Part shown: piece after piece, positions 4,901 to 63,207 of the stretch
Numbering within the stretch: the stretch's first letter is position 1
Layout: each line of letters starts with the position of its first letter
Made by a program: the position numbers and the translations under genes
The notes under the pieces: model-generated
What the model was told of the DNA's origin: nothing
What the model saw: the letters and a program-made list of their open reading frames with translations, nothing else
Databases searched by the model: none
Source of the DNA: Styela clava
Lineage: Eukaryota > Chordata > Ascidiacea > Stolidobranchia > Styelidae
DNA length: 64,000 nt
Reading direction: 5' to 3'
Assembly (NCBI RefSeq): GCF_964204865.1
Contig: NC_135261.1
Location: forward strand, 7,564,001-7,628,000

Positions 4901-7106
4901 AGCCGCTAAACCGGCTTTCCCGAGAAAGTCTTCTGACGCTGAAAGCCGGTTTAGCGGCTTTCGCATCCCGTAAGAGGTATGCAACTTTGAAACCTCATAT
5001 CTCGCGAACCATTTATTATATTTAGACAAGTTTTACATCGTGTGAAAGATAATCTACAGGACTAAGTATAATTTTAAAATTGAGATAAAATATGGTGATC
5101 ATCTTATAAAAAATGGCAAAATTAAAAAGCATAAAAAACTTCTGAAAATTGCTCAAATCTAATTGACAAAACTTAAATTTGTTTTCGATTAAACCTAGTA
5201 CATTATCGACAAAATTTGTAGAATTTGAAGATAGCTTTCCAGTGATACCATTAGATTGAACTTATGTTGCACCATTCAAATTTTAGAAGCATTTTTATTC
5301 GTGATTTTGTTTGTCACAAGATCGAGGCGACGTCAAGGTGACGTAAATAACGACCTAACACATTTACGCCGTTACGCAGCGACGTTAAGCAATTACGTTG
5401 GCACGTAGCACGTTTACGTTTCATACGAGAAACACTTTTCCTCGCATGCTCGTAACGTCATTTACTTAAGTTCGTACTCGTGAAGCGACTTACGACTTGT
5501 AAACGATACACGGGGAAATTTACGCATTACATCGGTTCGACTAAAACACACAATACGCAGTGTTATTGCCGTTTTAATTGCATAAAGATATGAAAAATAC
5601 GAATAGCCAAAATAAGAATTTTTAGAAACAGAATGATGGAACATATCGATGGATGCATTGTTTAGCGCCATTGCTGAGTTTTATTGTGCCATATTTTCTT
5701 CTTCCGATAGATGAATACTATCCAATATTTCATCTGGACAAAGCTTTCGTTTAAAATCCATTGTAAATATAGCGATATCAGGAATGTAGCGTATATGCAG
5801 TAATTTCGAAAATCTAATGAGGCTGCAAAATGTAAAACACTGACCAGGTGAGCTACTGGTGCCACCATGTCTTCCGTGTACCCGTTATCAGTTTTTTTTT
5901 ATTCAATCTTCATGATATCCAACGGTGAATAATTAGCCTTGATGTTTCCGGCGGAACCTCATAAATTCATGAGGATCAAATATTTCGTTTTGGCCATTCA
6001 TTTTCGTCCCATATCCAAATAGTAAACGTATATAAAATGGCCTTTATATTCTAGCAATTTTGCTATGTTCGATCAAAATTCGTCTGAAAGGGTTTTATCT
6101 GCGGCCGAGGATATGATACTAATGCAATGAAGCCACAATCTGCACTCAAGCTGTGAACGACCAGATGTGCAATTGCGCAATATACCTCACGCAAAGAGTT
6201 ACGCACGATACGTCGCATGAACGTTATCACGACAATGTCGTCGTCGCCCTTTGCGTCCTTACGCAAACTTGGCGTCAAATAGTTGATAAATTTTGTTCGC
6301 AAACCATTTGAATCGATAGTACAAATTCTGCAATAAAATGAGTTATGCGTATGTTAAGAAAGTCATACGTATATTCTCCGAAAGGTAATTTTGTATACTT
6401 TTCAAAATTGTACTTATATTGATGATACATTTCTAAGAAATGTATTAAATATTACCAAAATACAAAAAAATAGTAGATGAGGCTACAAATAGGCTTACAC
6501 ATCCCATCAAAACATCTCGTGAAAAATAATGCCAGTTAAAAATAAAAGACTAGATAAGCTTTTATATGATATATTACAGACCATCTGATATCTGATGGTT
6601 TAGAAGTTATTTTGATTTAAAATTAGGAATATTACAATTTTTTAACGCGTCGAATCGATGCGACGCCGTGGGAGGTCAGGGTGAGAGAGTATCGTCGTTC
6701 TGGGGATTCAGAGTTCAAAGAGTTAAGAAAGAATCTTGAAAGAAAAAAAAACAAGAACGTTGAAATATGTATTATGTATAACATGTAATAATTGAAACGT
6801 AATTAACCAATTACAATACATTTCCGAAATTATTCGTTTCAAACAATCACCTTCCAACTTCTTTATTCTTTCTTCTAGATGTCCCGCTGTTCCAAGTTCA
6901 CCCCGTTCTCCTTTTATTCCGGGCAATCCGCGTGTTCCTTCTATTCCTCTTTTTCCTGGCCTTCCTTGACACTGACTCGAATCACATCTGGCGAGACTCG
7001 CATTGCCGTTTGCCACCACGTGTGAACAAAATTCATACAATGTCGGCATATGACATAACACACAGGGACAGAGCAAAATCAAGGTGACAGTAACGGTAAA
7101 TTGCAT
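1940..7106 (-). CDS. Secreted collagen-like / F5/8 type C (discoidin) domain protein, 4 exons
   Basis: Minus-strand exons are 6851-7106, 4495-4653, 4024-4190 and 1940-2095. The phases (1, 1, 0) match at every junction and give 245 residues. Residues 1-18 are a hydrophobic signal peptide (MQFTVTVTLILL...). A short Cys-containing linker follows, then nine Gly-X-Y triplets starting GRPGKRGIEG, then a short helical neck (HLEERIKKLE). Exons 2-4 encode one F5/8 type C domain: an N-terminal Cys (EMCYMG), the core WHQIDFKAPKPIGGIVTQG, the DEWVRSFKISYG strand, and the C-terminal RYIRVYPQTWKSYMSMRLEY ending in a closing Cys (DGMC). F5/8C domains bind carbohydrate or lipid, and collagen triplets trimerise, so a secreted multimeric lectin-like protein is likely (inference). 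Donors are GTGATT, GTAAGT and GTAAGA; all acceptors are AG. Intron 1 carries a piggyBac-like element and intron 3 other repeat sequence. Further exons in intron 1 cannot be excluded. Confidence 0.82.
2266..3990. mobile_element. Probable decayed DNA transposon in intron 3
   Basis: The left edge (CAGGCGCGCAGCCAGGATTT, then a GGGGGTTCCC run) resembles terminal sequences of invertebrate DNA elements. Near 3970 there is GGGGGGTCGACCC, but a clean matching terminal repeat was not found. The inner part at 3290-3340 resembles the interior of the element at 58947-59631 (CATATTCACCGCCTCGAAATC versus CATATTCATCACCTCGAAATC). Boundaries are approximate. Confidence 0.35.
4881..6726. mobile_element. piggyBac-like nonautonomous element (TTAA target)
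   Basis: The left end is TTAACTCTTTGAACCCTGAA and the right end is its inverse TTCAGAGTTCAAAGAGTTAA, 19 of 20 bases matching and both bounded by TTAA, the signature target of piggyBac transposases. Just inside the left end is a second palindromic pair, GAAAGCCGCTAAACCGGC and its inverse, separated by about 20 bases. No transposase ORF is visible in the 1.85 kb. The element lies in intron 1 of the collagen/F5-8C gene, its right end 124 bp from exon 1. Confidence 0.8.
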
Positions 7107-7429
7107 ATTAGATTTGCAGATAATATTTTCTGAAATACATCAGCAGAATCGGATTAAAAATGTACAAATGGAACGTTTTGAACATATGAAGCATGCGTTC
7201 CAGTTAAATCAGCTCTATAAAAGTAGTAGTATGGGGTGTTGGCAATATCTCAATATTTGAAGATACGCTATTTACAACTTGCACTTGTTTACTCAAATGT
7301 TATTATGACGTATGAAAATCTACCTACTTATATCCTACCCTCTGAAAGTTAGATATCTGAATTAGAAGCATGGCGGGTGGGGTACAAAGTAATTGACGAA
7401 AGCATTTCATTCAAAATTTTCAAATACCT

Positions 7430-13132: not shown

Positions 13133-16100
13133 CTAAGCAGATGGACGTATCTTCATCTCGGTGAATTTCAGTGAATAATGATGTCCCCTCCATGTAAACC
13201 AATTTATACCGTCCGCGTAGGACTTGTGTTCACCTTCATAGTATTTGGCGTTTAAATTGGACGAATGACAAGCGTGATACCACCATGCTCCTTTGAACTC
13301 CACAGCGCAGTTTTTTCCGTAATTATCATGGTCCCTATCCTTTGTCGTGAATTTTAACCCGTTTGTCCCACTGAAAGAATCACCAGCGTTGCCTGAAAAA
13401 CCAGTCACAGCTACTTGATATTTGACGGCAAAGGATTCAATTTTAAACAATCTGTAACAAAATGATATGATTTTGAAACAAGACATCTCAAAAGCAAATG
13501 TTTGATTTATATTAAACTGATGATCGAATTCCTGTCGTAGAAATGGCAGTTTTCTAATCTCGAGTACTTCATTTATGAAATAAAAATGTGCTCATTGTAG
13601 CTTTCACATCAGAACACCATGTTCTAGGCTTGCACGTAATTGACAAAAATCAATTCCGTAATTACGGCAAAATCAATTACGTAATGACCCCGTAATTGCG
13701 ATATTTTTCCACGCATTTAAACCTATCGTAACAACCAATTGAATCCACTTTTTTCCGAATGGGACATTGAAGTTGGGTTTTCCTATTCTTGGCAGTACTA
13801 CACGCCGGCGGCAGATGTTAAAGACAACTATCAAGGAGTGAATTCAAATCAATTTTATTCTGATTTTTATCTTTTGTGTTAGCTTTGGTTTTTCTTTATC
13901 ACCTTCGCAAATTAACCGTCCCATTTTTATGCGATCAATTTTATTTTATCATTACCGACACTGGTATACGGATATTTATGGAAACGATAGTTTTTTAAAA
14001 CCACCTGAGTACTGAATAAAAATTACGGGTTTCTAATTTATTAACCAACAACGATTTCCTCGCGACGAAGACTTGTTTTTGCATTATCCGACATTACTGC
14101 CTTGTTAGCATTTTTATAATAATAATTATTGATGTCGACTCATTGACGGTATTCCTATTACCATGCTTCATTTTACATTCAATCATTTCGCGGACTGAAT
14201 GTTTATAACATTATTTGCGATAAATTTAGATCAAATATTATTTATTTGCGTATAATTTAAATACCGAACTTATATGACATGCCTTCTCCGAAAATACAAA
14301 GTTATATCGCAAAACAATGCATTTTGTGACATTTATTTTACACTCACAACTTTTATTTGCTAACTCAAGTCGGCGATCCTATCGGCCAAGATTGACAAAA
14401 GTTTGGTCGAGTGCCGGTGATATTCAAGTCGACGATAAATCAAAATAAGTTGCCGCATTTGGTAAGACAGTTAATCATATATGGCCGAAATATTGAGAGG
14501 AATTGTGAAAAACATCATGAGCAAGGCCAAGTCCGGACTGATATATAACGATAAAACCGTTAACAGAACATCAAGATTTTGTAATAGAAAATGGATCTCG
14601 CACAGAATAAACACACAGGCTCATATTCATTTATATATGATAGCAGTTAAATTTTCAACGGTCCGCGAGGAATCCGTCGTTTTGGATCATTACGCAATCT
14701 CTCTTTTGTCGTCATATTGCTATTTGATAAGCGCGACATTAATTATCACGGCGAGGTATGGGCGCGAGTGATCAATCGCTCTTTTCGCTTATTTGGTTCC
14801 AATTCGTCGCGAAAGCTCTTCGTTAAATTTCACAAGATAGTCGTGTTGAAAGGTTATGGATATTTTCCTGTTTATACCCCAAGTCTGAAATGAAACAGCC
14901 AAAAATAATATGATATTCCATGTTCATATATCAAGTGTTGATATTAACAATAAAGAATGGTTAAGCATTGCTAATCCACACTTGGTGGGGAATTCCCACT
15001 ATTCAAACGCGTGACTATAAAATAGAATAAAATAGAAACGGAACATATATACCATAAGTAACGGAAAACTGGAACAAGTAAATAATAAATAAAAGTAAAA
15101 TGGATACAAATGTTTGATAGACCATGTTTGATAGATTGATCTCCTGCGTTCATTAGTCATTTCACCCGAAGAAGTTGAAACCGGGCGTGTTAGCGTCCAT
15201 CTGTCTTAACACAATTCTTCCCCCTATCTACGGTTATATGTACATTGGCCATGGCCATGCTAGATAAGATGCGAGAGAAGTTGAAACCAGGTGTGTTGGC
15301 GTCAATCGGTCTCAACGCAATTCTATCTACGGTTAAGTTGCGGGAGAAGTTAAAACCAAGTGTGTTGGCGTCAAACGGCCCTACTCAGTTCTTGCCCCAT
15401 TAACTACGTTAATAATTTACATTGGCCACGCCAGATGAGTTGATAATAGGTTAGTAAATGGCAACGCGTCATGCCTTCCTTCACCTACGTAACAAGAGAG
15501 AGAAAAACGGCTGCGAATACCGGAACTCTAACTTCTTCTACTTGTTGAGCTTTCATTTTCGCAATCGACGAAATTGACTGCTTTGAAGAAAGCTCGTTTC
15601 AATGCAATAATTACGACTTTACGTAATTCGTAACTTCCCTTCCGTAACTCCAAATAATTACGTAATTCCGTAAATCCGTAAATTACGTGCAAGCCTACCA
15701 TGTTCTTTGTTCACCCACCACAAGATTTGTCTGAATGTACTTAGTGCACATGAGCACAATTTTAGTCTAAAGTAATCGATAAGCTAATAAAGTCTATAGC
15801 AGTGATAAGTCATTTACAATAACATAAACAAATGATAAATTAATTTGGTGAGTTGTAAAATTCCCACTTTTTGGTTACTTGTCAATTGCGATTTCACCCA
15901 GTATTTTATCCACATTGGTTATAGCAATGAATGGCGAGTTTTTGTTAAATATTTGGGCATTATTATTCAAAGACAAAAGCATTATAAAAAGTCAACAACG
16001 GACTCACGAATATTTTGCATATCTTGCATGTCCTTCCCAGTCTTCCATGTCAACTCTGAGTTCATATTTCCTTCCATCGGATGTTAGTTTGTGCAGGGTT

Positions 16101-39465: not shown

Positions 39466-39692
39466 ATAGGATAGGATTTACATATTTATCCCGGGGGAGA
39501 GGAAAGCCGATAATACGGCTTATCCATATGGCGAATCACGGCCTCTCGTCCGGTTACCATTCCAGGGTCGGGTATGGGATAAGTTATATTGTTTGTTTTT
39601 CGAAAGCATGGACTTGGTGGTGGAGGAAGCCGTAACCGACCAGCGGTTACGTGAACCACCCAACGACGGCGAGTAGTTCAGCAATCCTAAGA
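39466..39692 (-). mobile_element. tRNA-derived SINE, tail and body part (interrupted by LINE)
   Basis: Minus-strand SINE with tail AAATCCTATCCTATCC at 39466-39480. The sequence runs to AGTTCAGCAATCCT at 39692, where the LINE begins. The same sequence, with one base changed (GAGTAG versus GAGGAG), occurs intact at 42152-42250, and the remainder of this copy resumes at 42096. Confidence 0.8.
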
Positions 39693-42006
39693 ATGAGTAT
39701 ACTCTCAGTATGTTCTTGGACCTTTCCAAGGCATTTGATAGTATTGACCATGACATATTACTAGCCAAATTGCACCATATTGGCGTTAGAGGTCAGAGTT
39801 ATAATTGGTTTAAAAGCTACTTATCAGGAAGGAAACAAGTAGTTATATACAATGATGTAGCATCTAGCACATACTGTAATTTGACTGTAGGTACTTTACA
39901 AGGTTCTATTTTGGCTCCATTATGTTTTTCAATCATTATTAACGACTTTCCGAATTCTCTTCTTCACTCTGATATCATACTTTTTGCTGATGACTCAACG
40001 CCATATCTTCGAGGCAAAAACTTGCCTGAACTTTTGACCAAGGCAAATACCGACTTAGTAAATATTCAAGCTTGGTTGTCTGCGAACAAACTCACTATTA
40101 ATGTCGATAAAACTAAATATATGATATTTAGCACGCCGAAGCAAAAGTGTCCAACTCTGCAACAAAATTTGGAATTAAATGGAATAAATATAGAAAGAGT
40201 TAATCAGACTCGCTTTCTGGGTGTAATGATCGATGATAAATTGTCTTGGAAACAACACACCAATATGGTTCTATCGAAAACAAGATCGTCTCTTAGTGCC
40301 ATTACGAAAATAGCCAACTACTTAAATACATCTTGTTTAATATCTCTATACCACTCTCTGATAGAAAGCCATATTCGTTATTGTGCCTCAGCTTATGTTC
40401 ATCGCCAATCGTCCATTCTCAAAAAAATTCAAAGTGTTTGCAATCGCTTTATTAGAAGAGTTTTTCATAGAGGTAATCGCGAAAAAATTGATGACTTATT
40501 TAAAGAGCATAGGCTACTACGAGTTGTGGATTTAGCTAAATTCGAACTATGTACTATGATGTTCTCTTGTCACATTGGAGAGCTTCCGTCCAGCCTGAAC
40601 AGCCTGTTCCAAGCAAACCCAAATTCAAACAGCAGAAATAAAGATAATTTTTTTATTCCATTTGTCAGTAAAAGTATTTCACAAGAATCAATCGCAGTAT
40701 GTGGACCAAAAGCTTGGAATTCCCTACCCGATGACATCAAAAATTCAAAATCGAACTCAGAATTTCGTTCCAAACTTAAACAATATATATTATCATCATA
40801 TTAGCAATTTTCTCTGCTTTGAACATGTTACTGTTTGGAGATTATTTTTTTAAGGTTAGTTCAACACTGAAAGGGAGAGCTGTTGATTATTTGGATTGAA
40901 TGAACTATCAGGAAACTGTCCTCCTCTTCAGTCACCATAGACCAGCTGACAATTTCAATAACTCCACAGGATACTTCACCCGGATTCAATATAGAACAAT
41001 GGACTGAATTAATAACTAGCACACCATTCTAATTTCATTATCATGCGTAATTAGACAACAACAAAAGCACAGCAATTTAGGTTATAGATAGAATGCTCAA
41101 ATAGTAGGGAGTAGGGACAATGGTTTTTGTTTGAGTAGCATGCTGTTCAATTTATTTCCATTGTTGCTACCTATCACCGAATCACACTTTTTCTTCTGCT
41201 CATCCCAGGATACCATATAATTTTATTATTTTAATTCACATTGGAAAATCCATGACATGGTAAAATGGCTTCTCTTTATAACTTATCATTCCCTATCCCA
41301 CTGTACCTTTATACCTTTCTAATCTTCTGGCTGAAATGCAACCATAATAGGTTTTGTGGAAATGCTTTTTATTAATTCTTTTTATTTCTTTTTTTTTGAA
41401 ACTTCATTGTTTTTGGCTGAATCCAGAATTTCAAAAAAAACCTTATAATAGTGAGTCATTTGATACATACCTTTTTTATCATATTTCGCCAAAACCTGTA
41501 GGGTCACATTTTGGCCAGAACAGCCATAGACCACTTATAACACTGTCGCCCTTGAGTGGTGCATACCATATATGTACACACCCTTTAAACTTGACCATTC
41601 CCGCGTTTTATAGTATGTGGTATCATCACTCAATGGTATTGTACATTCATCTAAATTCTTAATTTTTTTTTTTTAAAATTTTTTTTATTACTATATTCAT
41701 ATGCATTGTGTTTCATGTTGTGTTGTGTCTCTATTTATAGATGTTGTTTTGTCTAACAAACTCCTTTGTACAAACAGTTTTGTACACTCCACCCATATCC
41801 CTGTTATCGCATCCACCCACCCTCCTCGCACAACTGCCTGTATAAAGGACCATATTGTACATATTTGATTTACCCTATTATAATTTATATAAATCAAAGG
41901 GGTGTATGCCGCACATCTGTGTTTTAGGCCAATATGGTCTTGTGCATACATCCCGTCTTCAGTATTTATAAGTACTTACTCTTTTATATTGCTTTTACGA
42001 GACGAA
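39693..42006 (+). mobile_element. 5'-truncated non-LTR retrotransposon (LINE)
   Basis: It starts abruptly inside the SINE with sequence encoding the catalytic part of a reverse transcriptase, and ends in an ACGAATAAACATACATAC tail that runs into an (ACAT)n tract. The absence of an endonuclease domain and the N-terminal RT part marks 5' truncation, normal for target-primed insertion. Jockey/CR1-type affinity is suggested by the RT and its C-terminal region; the exact clade is not determined. Confidence 0.85.
39710..40804 (+). CDS. Reverse transcriptase fragment of a LINE
   Basis: A 364-residue uninterrupted ORF. Motifs in order: the first catalytic Asp block FLDLSKAFDSIDHDILL (residues 2-18), GTLQGSILAPLCF (61-73, where most LINEs have PQG), and LFADDS (91-96) with the two catalytic Asp. 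Then come a thumb-like part with TRFLGVMIDDKLSW and a C-terminal region ending GPKAWNSLPDD...EFRSKL, common to Jockey/CR1-like ORF2 proteins. The real ORF2 start and endonuclease are missing; the first ATG is internal, and the open frame extends a few codons upstream to the insertion junction. Not expected to be active. The lack of stops suggests a young copy. Confidence 0.85.
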   Translation: MFLDLSKAFDSIDHDILLAKLHHIGVRGQSYNWFKSYLSGRKQVVIYNDVASSTYCNLTVGTLQGSILAPLCFSIIINDFPNSLLHSDIILFADDSTPYLRGKNLPELLTKANTDLVNIQAWLSANKLTINVDKTKYMIFSTPKQKCPTLQQNLELNGINIERVNQTRFLGVMIDDKLSWKQHTNMVLSKTRSSLSAITKIANYLNTSCLISLYHSLIESHIRYCASAYVHRQSSILKKIQSVCNRFIRRVFHRGNREKIDDLFKEHRLLRVVDLAKFELCTMMFSCHIGELPSSLNSLFQANPNSNSRNKDNFFIPFVSKSISQESIAVCGPKAWNSLPDDIKNSKSNSEFRSKLKQYILSSY

Positions 42007-52795: not shown

Positions 52796-55064
52796 ATGAT
52801 GCTGATAATTATTGTTGTAGTCTATTTAATGGCAGGAGTCCGAGCGCAGGCAAACTGGCAAAACATGCGAGAATTCGTACCGTCAGAATTTTTCAATAAA
52901 TTTGATGAAAAGGTATGTATTCATTAATATACCATATTTATTTAAAAGAACGCAATAATGATAACGTGAAGTCACGTTTTACATTACAGGTTTCTCAAAC
53001 TGAGGCGTTGAAATTTGATTTTCCCAGAGATAAAAACTTTGTTTACGGCAAATATCCCAAATGTTATCCGATCAGGTATTTAGCTAATTTCCATGTTTTG
53101 TGCCAAGTGGGTTTCACAATTTTACAGAAATTGCGTTTTGCTTTTGTGTGATTAGAATACATTTGTAGCTAATACACCTGATACAGCTAATACACTGTAT
53201 TTTGACAGATTGTCATCAGGGCCAGACGAGGTACCCAAAACAGAGAAGAAAACAGTTAGGAACACAAATTGTACAGATAGAGAATGCTTTCACATCACTC
53301 AATATGGATCGACTAAATGTAACAAAATGGTTGAACTCTACAGGCCGTTTAAACATGTCGCGGTGGAATGCAGGTACGTTTTACTACGTACAATGTGTTT
53401 TCGTGTCCTTTATTCAACTTTAGCATGGTGACAATAAATTGAAAAAAAATTTCACGACCAAATCAGATTATGACATCATTAATTTTTTTGTATATCGAGT
53501 TGCCAGTATGATACGAAAAGTAAATTCATGCATACAGATGCGAATTACCGAAGCTTAGATAATATCAAAAAGTTTGAACTACAAATTATAAATGCAATAA
53601 TGCAAGGCGCTCCAGACGTATTCGTACCAGGGCCATTTCCCTTAGGATACTTTGCTCCCGTGGTATTCGTACCAGGGCCATTTCCCTTAGGATACTTTGC
53701 TCCCGTGGTATTCGTACCAGGGCATTTTCATTCGGGATACTTTGCTCCCGTGGTATTGGACCAGGGCTTCTTCCTTTGGGATACTTTGCTACCGTGGTAT
53801 TCGTACCAGGGCTTCTTCCTTTGGGATTCTTTGCTCCCGTGGTATTCGTACCAGGGCATTTTCCTTTGGAATACTTTGCTCCCGTGGTATTCGTACCAGG
53901 GCTTCTTCCTTTGGGATTATTTGCTCCCGTGGTATTCGTATCAGGGTCTTTTCCTTTGGGATTCTTTGCTCCCGTGGTATTCGTATCAAGGCATTTTCCT
54001 TCGGGATACTTTTCTCCCGTGGTATTCGTACCAGGGTCTTTTTATTCGGGTTACTTTGCTCCCGTGGTATTCGTACCAGGGTCTTTTTATTCGGATTACT
54101 TTGCTCCCGTGGTATTCGTACCAGGGTCTTTTTATTCGGGTTACTTTGCTCCCGTGGTATTCGTACCAGGGCATTTTCCTTCGGGATACTTTGCTCCCGT
54201 GGTATTCGTACCAGGGCATTTTCCTTTGGGATTCTTTGCTCCCGTGGTCTTCGTATCAGCGCATTTTCCTTCGGGATACTTTGCTCCCATGGTATTCATA
54301 CCAGGGCACTTTTCTTTAAGAATACTTTGTCTTACTCAATCCCTACATTGTTACGAATACGGCGCTCCAGAAGTATTCGTACCAATTTGGGAATTGAGTA
54401 AGGCAAAATAAAGCATAGTATCCTAAGGGAAATGCCCTGGTACGAATACTTCGGGCACACCAAAACTTTTTACAAATACATCTACCAGGATGTTTTTATT
54501 TTCAAGGTTTCCTCAAAATGTGTGTGCCCAGTGTGGCAAACATTCAATAAACAAATATGAATGTCAGACCATTTGGTGCGTTGGTGAGATGTTGACAATC
54601 TACAAAGAAAATGGGAAACTGTACCAAGGATATCTTACAATTAAGGTAAAGAAATATACCATCTCTGTTCTGATCAAGATAATTTATATTTTAGGTGAAT
54701 AAAATTCAATTATTTGAATGTTTTGTTTATATTTTCAATTTCATATCTTTCGATATTGAAATTTTGAGGTCAGCTCAGTTTATCCTAAAAATGTGTATCA
54801 GCAAAAGTTACAGCCTATAGGTTCTCGTTCGTTTCTATTGTATCCGCTTTTCTGCAAAAATTTCACGATTTTTGGTCGACAAGTAGAAAATTCTGCGATA
54901 CCAACGGTAATTTTTATAATAATTTTCGTCCTATAAATACAAAATCAAAAACAATATTAACAATATTTGTCATGTACAATATTTGATAACTTTTTACCTG
55001 TGCATTTTAATTGCAGAAACCATGTAAATGCGATTGTAGAAAGAAAAAAACCAGATCGACTTAG
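52796..55064 (+). CDS. Small secreted cystine-knot protein, Spaetzle/neurotrophin-like, 5 exons
   Basis: Exons are 52796-52912, 52990-53075, 53209-53373, 54507-54645 and 55017-55064, all GT-AG, phases 0, 2, 2 and 0 consistent, 184 residues. Residues 1-18 are a signal peptide (MMLIIIVVVYLMAGVRAQ). A Cys-poor pro-like part (about 19-60) is followed by a Cys-rich region: KCYP, NTNC, REC, TKC, HVAVECR, CAQCG, KYECQT, IWC, then GYLTIKKPCKCDCRKKK and a basic tail ending RST. The last part, C-x8-C-x9-C-x28-C-x-C, is within one or two residues of the NGF spacing, and the VAVEC...C...C...LTIYKENG...CKCDC order also matches the Spaetzle fold. Secreted ligands of this fold signal through Trk/p75 or Toll receptors; that role here is inference. 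Alternatives are IL-17-like or PDGF/VEGF-like knots. Intron 3 contains the minisatellite element. An AATAAA lies 98 bp after the stop. Confidence 0.72.
53606..54461. mobile_element. Inverted-repeat element expanded into a minisatellite
   Basis: The left end GGCGCTCCAGACGTATTCGT, continuing ACCAGGGCCATTTCCC, is the inverse of the right end (ACGAATACTTCGGGCACACC preceded by GGGAAATGCCCTGGT). The ends resemble those of family A (GCTCC.GAAGTAT). Between them is the 45-bp tandem array plus an internal GGCGCTCCAGAAGTATTCGT copy at about 54361. It lies in intron 3 of the cystine-knot gene. Confidence 0.7.
53616..54325 (+). repeat. 45-bp minisatellite, about 16 copies
   Basis: The unit runs GTATTCGTACCAGGGC, then a TTTCC(C/T)TTNGG(G/A)AT core, ACTTTGCTCCCGTG, with substitutions between copies. 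The period (45) is a multiple of three and the unit lacks stops, so long ORFs appear in all three forward frames and in two reverse frames; these are not taken as genes. Confidence 0.95.
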
Positions 55065-55162: not shown

Positions 55163-55168
55163 AATAAA
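55163..55168 (+). terminator. Poly(A) signal AATAAA of the cystine-knot gene
   Basis: A canonical AATAAA 98 bp downstream of the stop codon, followed within 30-40 bp by a T-rich stretch (CTATTTGTTTCTC). Position fits a short 3'UTR. Confidence 0.6.
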
Positions 55169-62224: not shown

Positions 62225-62941
62225 TTTCTGGTTGATTTTGATGTTGCCTGCTGTCACGCAGAACTCGGTGAAAAAGTTTGAGTTTTTTTGTGCAAGGATG
62301 ATATACTTTCAGAGTTTGATCGCGTTCATTATTTTTCAAATTCAAATTTTCGATATTCAACAAGGAAGTCATTAGTCAACAGTTTCGTGGTATAACGCAC
62401 ACGGCGACTGCTTTTTATGTGTGGGCTGTTATATTATTTACTGCATATGCATTTGGCAAATGAACCAATCTTGTCGCATGATGCACATTCATTAATTATA
62501 CACAGTTATGCGTGGTAATTACTGTATATGATTATTAAAAGCCAGCGATGCTAGTAGGTTGGCGGTTTCACTCGATGTGTTGTCAGTGAAAGTGAAAGTA
62601 GAATTTATCAGAGCAATGGGCTCTCGTATTGATGGTTGAACATTATTAGACCCCAATAACTCGTCAACGCAGAGAGCTGATAATAAGGTGGTTTGATGTA
62701 CCTCGATAAAATTACGAGTGTAGATGTGCTTATTAGCATATCAAAAAAAATCAGGACAATTGTATTGCTGCGTTTAGAATATCGTTTCAATATTTCCAAA
62801 TAGTATTTGGAACAGAACAGTGAAAATGCCAAAGTATTTTTTTTTGTTTTCAATCTCTATTATAGGGCCACTAATTGACGTCACCATTTTGACTTTGAGC
62901 AAAATATTGTATTCCTATATTCCTTAGTTATAAACCCGTTT

Positions 62942-63207
62942 GCTTTAATAGTATGCATCAAGTGTGGTGAAATTAAAATTATGTCTCTTATGCCAGACTT
63001 CAAATTCTAACATTAGACTGATGCAGGATTCCCTAATTTTTGATTCATGAAGACACGGTGTGCTTCCAATGTTGGCTTTAATAGTATGCATCAAGTGTGG
63101 TGAAATTAAAATTATGTCTCTTATGCCAGACTTCAAATTCTAACATTAGACTGATGCAGGATTCCCTAATTTTTGATTCATGAAGACACGGTGTGCTTCC
63201 AATGTTG
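62942..63207 (+). repeat. Perfect tandem duplication, 2 x 133 bp
   Basis: 62942-63074 and 63075-63207 are identical over 133 bp as read. The unit starts GCTTTAATAGTATGCATCAA and ends CGGTGTGCTTCCAATGTTG. Absence of any difference indicates a very recent event or an assembly artefact. Confidence 0.95.

Follow-up and report, generated by a model that had tools for sequence, protein, structure and literature searches.

Introduction

The described protein families closest to the gene considered here, which occupies positions 52796 to 55064 on the plus strand of a 64,000-nucleotide stretch of the Styela clava genome (assembly GCF_964204865.1, contig NC_135261.1, positions 7,564,001 to 7,628,000; hereafter the window), are Spaetzle, the neurotrophins, Noggin, and IL-17. 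According to the available parts of the papers concerned, neurotrophins are thought to have been lost in tunicates (PMC2586362), and Ciona is without the neurotrophin, Trk, and p75 system (PMC2772990). The same part of PMC2586362 reports that PSI-BLAST could not tie Spaetzle to the neurotrophins and that some Spaetzle paralogs gain or miss cysteines; since that link was missed, failed sequence searches are weak evidence against membership. Related work is covered, in the portions accessible, for IL-17 (PMC4517768), VEGF (PMC10328876), and neurotrophins (PMC7535936).

The reading favored here, with a probability of about 60%, is that the window gene is one odd, divergent copy within a large set of secreted, disulfide-rich tunicate proteins that have 13 cysteines, were spread by clustered and dispersed duplication, and are plausibly of cystine-knot type in their C-terminal half. 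No description of the family was found in the literature searched, and it is apparently undescribed so far. Spaetzle (Drosophila C-106, PDB 4bv4/3e07) resembles the family in its C-x6-C, C-x29-C, and C-x-C near the C-terminus and in its short tail, and low-confidence models of the family place a Spaetzle-like hairpin (strand-turn-strand) between these cysteines. In contrast to Spaetzle, the family has 13 cysteines, an ending of C-x-C-x-C rather than CC-x-C, a loop whose length differs greatly among copies (13 residues at this place in Spaetzle), and no family-wide basic site in the interval from column 77 to C89 (numbering of the window protein). NGF and other neurotrophins resemble the window copy alone, through its C-x9-C-x9-C-x29-C-x-C (9/11/27/1 in NGF) and basic tail, whereas the family differs from NGF in its cysteine-bearing N-terminal region and in lacking the NGF signature (see below). 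Noggin shares the C-x-C-x-C end, and a separate Noggin gene is already present in the genome; IL-17 is a secreted knot-type cytokine family that, like the family studied here, looks expanded in the same genome.

A family of paralogs with a constant frame and a variable loop

A search of the 376.6 Mb genome with the window protein gave 102 exon matches at an expectation value (E) up to 0.001, which is a lower bound and includes four of the window gene's own. Copies were modeled from 40 fetched stretches plus the window (two further places stand outside the count) with a splice script that used the exons of the window gene as its guide, resulting in 49 chains including the window's. Exon 3 or 4 is present in 48 chains (again with the window's, and some of them fragments), all five exons are present in 33, and four chains (L026, L031, L038, and L043) have just one exon each. 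The copies lie on seven contigs, with 26 on C16, 10 on C19, five on C4, two each on C5, C1, and C6, and one on C8. Shared intron phases are partly built in, since the script imposes those of the window, while recurring open frames with homologous peptides are not. Visible imperfections include a short exon 1 (L010, L012, L013, L015, and L018), exon 3 of L020m4873, and a cut exon 4 in L014. By a simple hydropathy test, used without a dedicated predictor, 33/33 five-exon models have a signal-peptide-like hydrophobic run within residues 1-20 and 0/33 have a later membrane span.

The cysteine count covers 42 chains; of the full set of 49, it leaves out the four that consist of one exon and the three in which an exon is skipped (L035, L044, and L046). 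As a rule, 13 cysteines are conserved, at distances that are for the most part constant. Counted by alignment column, C89-x4-C94-x10-C105-x16-C122 is found in 42/42 models, C122-x6-C129 in 40/40, C140-x-C142-x4-C147 in 41/41, and C147-x24-C172 and C172-x-C174-x-C176 in 39/39 each. Expressed as Spaetzle-type intervals, x6 is present in 40/40 and x29 in 39/39, with a middle interval of 12 to 63. Nearer the N-terminus, the C64-C77 interval is x12 in 37/39 models and x13 in 2/39, and the C77-C89 interval varies from 10 to 20. Replacements affect C105 (5/42), C147 (2/41), and C129 (1/40). The loop C129-C142 spans 12 to 63 residues among models with both ends, the 12 residues of the window copy being the shortest. 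Repeats around HLYPEP occupy this loop in one subfamily (L022, L026, L036-L039, L041, and L042), so that gain or loss of repeats may explain some of its variation in length, and LYP motifs reach four per protein, in L041.

The family genes are coding and under purifying constraint. The ratio of nonsynonymous to synonymous divergence (dN/dS) is below 1 in 21 of the 23 pairs computed, the values of 1.01 and 1.59 belonging to two pairs with very little difference, and ranges from 0.34 to 0.56 between the window copy and seven paralogs, values to which selection on the branches of those paralogs contributes as well. When the corresponding proportions of differences (pN/pS) were pooled over 15 near pairs of our choosing, all six parts of the protein fell below 1, with 0.25 for C140-C176, 0.48 for C89-C129, and 0.61-0.65 for the signal, N-terminal region, loop, and tail. 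In these chosen pairs there is no pooled sign of diversifying selection in the loop, which is nevertheless freer than the core. A maximum-likelihood tree of 38 rows makes the window copy sister to the seven close paralogs (supports 100/99 for the eight and 98/94 for the seven), with the next row, L021, joining at 94/71; given this position, the cysteine changes of the window copy look like its own.

The window gene

The five-exon model of the earlier note holds at the level of the sequence: with four predicted GT-AG introns removed, the reading phases agree and leave 184 codons and a stop, for a protein of 184 residues with a hydrophobic N-terminus. Exon 1 (52796..52912, plus strand, as are all features of the gene) has an open frame and a GT donor, carries the start codon, the putative signal peptide MMLIIIVVVYLMAGVRA, and the beginning of the N-terminal region, and ends in phase 0. 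Exon 2 (52990..53075; phase 2 end), which has AG/GT borders and a homologous exon in the paralogs, continues this region with the conserved C64. Exon 3 (53209..53373; phase 2 end) contains C89-x4-C94-x10-C105-x16-C122, with proline in place of the family's C77. Exon 4 (54507..54645) contains C129, the variable loop, C132, C142, C147, and a beta hairpin predicted by low-confidence structure models, with tyrosine in place of C140. The KPCKCDC ending (C172-x-C174-x-C176) and basic tail, also claimed earlier, are present in exon 5 (55017..55064) along with the stop codon. Intron 3 (53374..54506) contains a minisatellite (53618-54329; unit 45 bp, 15.8 copies, 89% matches), and a possible polyadenylation signal, AATAAA, can be read ~100 bases past the stop (55163..55168). 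The model goes beyond chance, because 33 complete models, the window's included, share this layout of five exons and encode homologous peptides, and because of the dN/dS values above; the gene is real and looks intact.

The window protein has 12 cysteines (64, 89, 94, 105, 122, 129, 132, 142, 147, 172, 174, and 176). The earlier note assigned it the NGF/Spaetzle-like run C-x8-C-x9-C-x28-C-x-C, in which two of four intervals were miscounted, the actual run being C122-x9-C132-x9-C142-x29-C172-x-C174. The intervals C-x6-C and C-x29-C-x-C equal those of Spaetzle. The NGF-like run hinges on C132. Since this middle cysteine is private to the window copy (0/41 other aligned models), NGF-like spacing is not a family trait, and the family frame of C-x6-C, loop, and C-x29-C-x-C does not place knot cysteines at 9/11/27/1. 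Random placement of the nine upstream cysteines fitted NGF 9/11/27 equally closely in 253/5000 trials. The C-x6-C-x12-C-x29-C of the window copy is one residue off the 6/13/29 of Drosophila Spaetzle, a closeness attained in 27/5000 random placements, for a pattern picked after seeing the data. A proline in column 77 and a tyrosine in column 140 are found in the window copy alone among all models; L020m4873 is also without C77, together with C89 and C94, but in a doubtful exon. The joint loss in the window copy, a single event and only a hint, suggests that C77 and C140 may be bonded to each other in other members.

Comparison with known ligand families

Profiles of the Spaetzle, NGF, IL-17, PDGF, and Noggin families, named for checking in the earlier note, gave no match in 14 members, while those of IL-17 and Noggin, serving as controls, match elsewhere in the genome. 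For NGF (Pfam PF00243) and Spaetzle (PF16077), none was found in the genome either at E up to 0.001, but nothing matched anywhere, so absence is not shown. IL17 (PF06083) and Noggin (PF05806) were not found at the family loci in the genome profile search, which placed one strong Noggin match on contig C14 (E 1.3e-71) and 32 IL-17 exon matches over the cut-off on contigs C3, C5, C2, C10, C1, C8, and C19, clustered on the first two. In Styela clava, IL-17 thus seems to have expanded. Most of these 32 matches cover profile positions ~15-80 in one frame, whereas introns interrupt the core of the family studied here immediately downstream of C122 and upstream of C172. The PDGF profile found nothing in the 14 members at E up to 10, without a positive control and without a genome search. 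No other meaningful Pfam match was found in these members, and searches of PDB by sequence or profile were also without a match. The NGF signature, [GSRE]-C-[KRL]-G-[LIVT]-[DE]-x(3)-[YW]-x-S-x-C as quoted in the accessible part of PMC2772990, is present in human NGF (control) and in 0/42 models. In the interval examined for a cleavage site, from column 77 to C89, 8/40 models contain RxxR or a basic pair.

Shuffle Z scores against NGF were 5.0 for the window protein (3.6 with cysteines kept), the same as for the control comparison of Spaetzle with NGF, and -0.6 to 3.3 for eight other members. Against Spaetzle, the window protein scored 1.8 and the other eight -0.5 to 2.7, and single members reached 3.6 against PDGF and 3.4 against Noggin, so that no family stands out; nine members scored -0.3 to 1.7 against IL-17.

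Structure prediction, made without an alignment, lends the cystine knot suspected earlier a predicted hairpin and weak neurotrophin ranks, although neither model is confident. The full-length model has a predicted local distance difference test score (pLDDT) of 49.8 and a predicted template modeling score (pTM) of 0.42, and the core model (residues 85-184; six strands and one short helix) has values of 52.3 and 0.35. When the core model was compared with 350,542 PDB chains using Foldseek, ranks 1-7 and 10 were NGF or neurotrophins, all non-significant (E 0.23-2.9, template modeling score ~0.2); these matches are mutually dependent, but nothing had prompted their order. With the full-length model, no neurotrophin appeared among the 50 listed rows, rank 16 being a VEGF-B chain (E 0.70), and VIA-align added nothing. 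Taken with the intervals that equal those of Spaetzle, the core-model ranks leave a cystine-knot-like C-terminal half plausible.

The favored reading and its alternatives

Under the favored reading of a duplicated tunicate family, the signal peptide would direct export, and the 13 cysteines would lock a fixed scaffold made of the N-terminal region (C64, C77) and the C-terminal half, the latter with a beta hairpin and C-x-C-x-C end like a cystine-knot finger. The loop between C129 and C140, free in length and sequence, may set what each copy binds. The proteins would function extracellularly, as ligands or as binding effectors, and an odd cysteine might let them form dimers. Whether the fold is a knot at all bears on the most serious competitor, a tentative but real possibility, in which the family has another disulfide-rich fold and serves in antimicrobial, adhesive, tunic, or reproductive secretions. 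The 13 cysteines, where the NGF knot has six, the conservation of cysteines in the N-terminal region, the LYP motifs of the loop, and the lack of a profile match to any knot family all speak for this, and the predicted hairpin, C-x-C end, x6/x29 spacing, and weak neurotrophin ranks speak against it. That the knot arose independently, or descends from a different knot family (Noggin or IL-17, for example), is rather unlikely: plain Noggin and plain IL-17s exist elsewhere in the genome while neither profile matches the family loci, and the IL-17 shuffle scores are low. It is also unlikely, and somewhat more so, that the window copy is a decaying pseudogene; it is without two conserved cysteines, gains one, and has the shortest loop, but its frame is open, its splice sites are intact, and its dN/dS against seven relatives is below 1, a ratio to which the relatives' branches also contribute.

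The proposal closest to the earlier note, a true but very divergent Spaetzle/neurotrophin branch kept and expanded in tunicates and acting on Toll-like or Trk-like receptors, is improbable, as is membership of the family in that superfamily. In its favor are the family-wide C-x6-C and C-x29-C-x, the window protein's control-level score against NGF, the neurotrophins in the non-significant top seven core-model ranks, and a knot region split over exons, as is also the case for Spaetzle and Daphnia neurotrophin precursors in the available part of PMC2772990. Weighing against it are the missing NGF signature and Pfam match, the low scores of other members with no family standing out, and a basic site that is not family-wide. 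The joint loss of C77 and C140 in the window copy, a single event, hints at a bond that links the N-terminal region with the C-terminal half, at variance with a prodomain that is cleaved off. LRRCT_2 is a domain of Trk receptors; the genome search found no match to it, its positive control being silent too.

Genomic context and implications

The fusion of CelA and glycoside hydrolase family 6 is a mark of tunicates. The earlier guess of a tunicate source is well supported by an exon matching CelA, a cellulose synthase of bacterial type (E 1.6e-28, under the cut-off that this model sets for whole proteins) and, ~2 kb downstream on the same strand, an exon matching glycoside hydrolase family 6 (E 1.5e-6). 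Elsewhere in the window, collagen-like and fibrinogen-like open frames on the minus strand (6723-7139 and 13133-13591) are by eye probably ficolin-like lectin exons, a 375-residue open frame on the plus strand (39677-40804) resembles by eye the reverse transcriptase of a long interspersed element (LINE), and a 133-bp unit occurs twice in tandem, almost without change (99% matches), at 62938-63207.

The cysteine spacing of one gene can mislead if its paralogs differ. Approximately fifty similar secreted proteins in one tunicate represent a sizeable annotation gap in the closest relatives of vertebrates. That tunicates kept a Spaetzle/neurotrophin-type knot ligand and diversified it into a ligand set of some fifty paralogs, all built on the same 13-cysteine scaffold and each with a single loop free to vary, is distinctly improbable on present evidence. 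If the fold is a cystine knot, whether tunicates kept any ligand of this type would become testable by one good structure.
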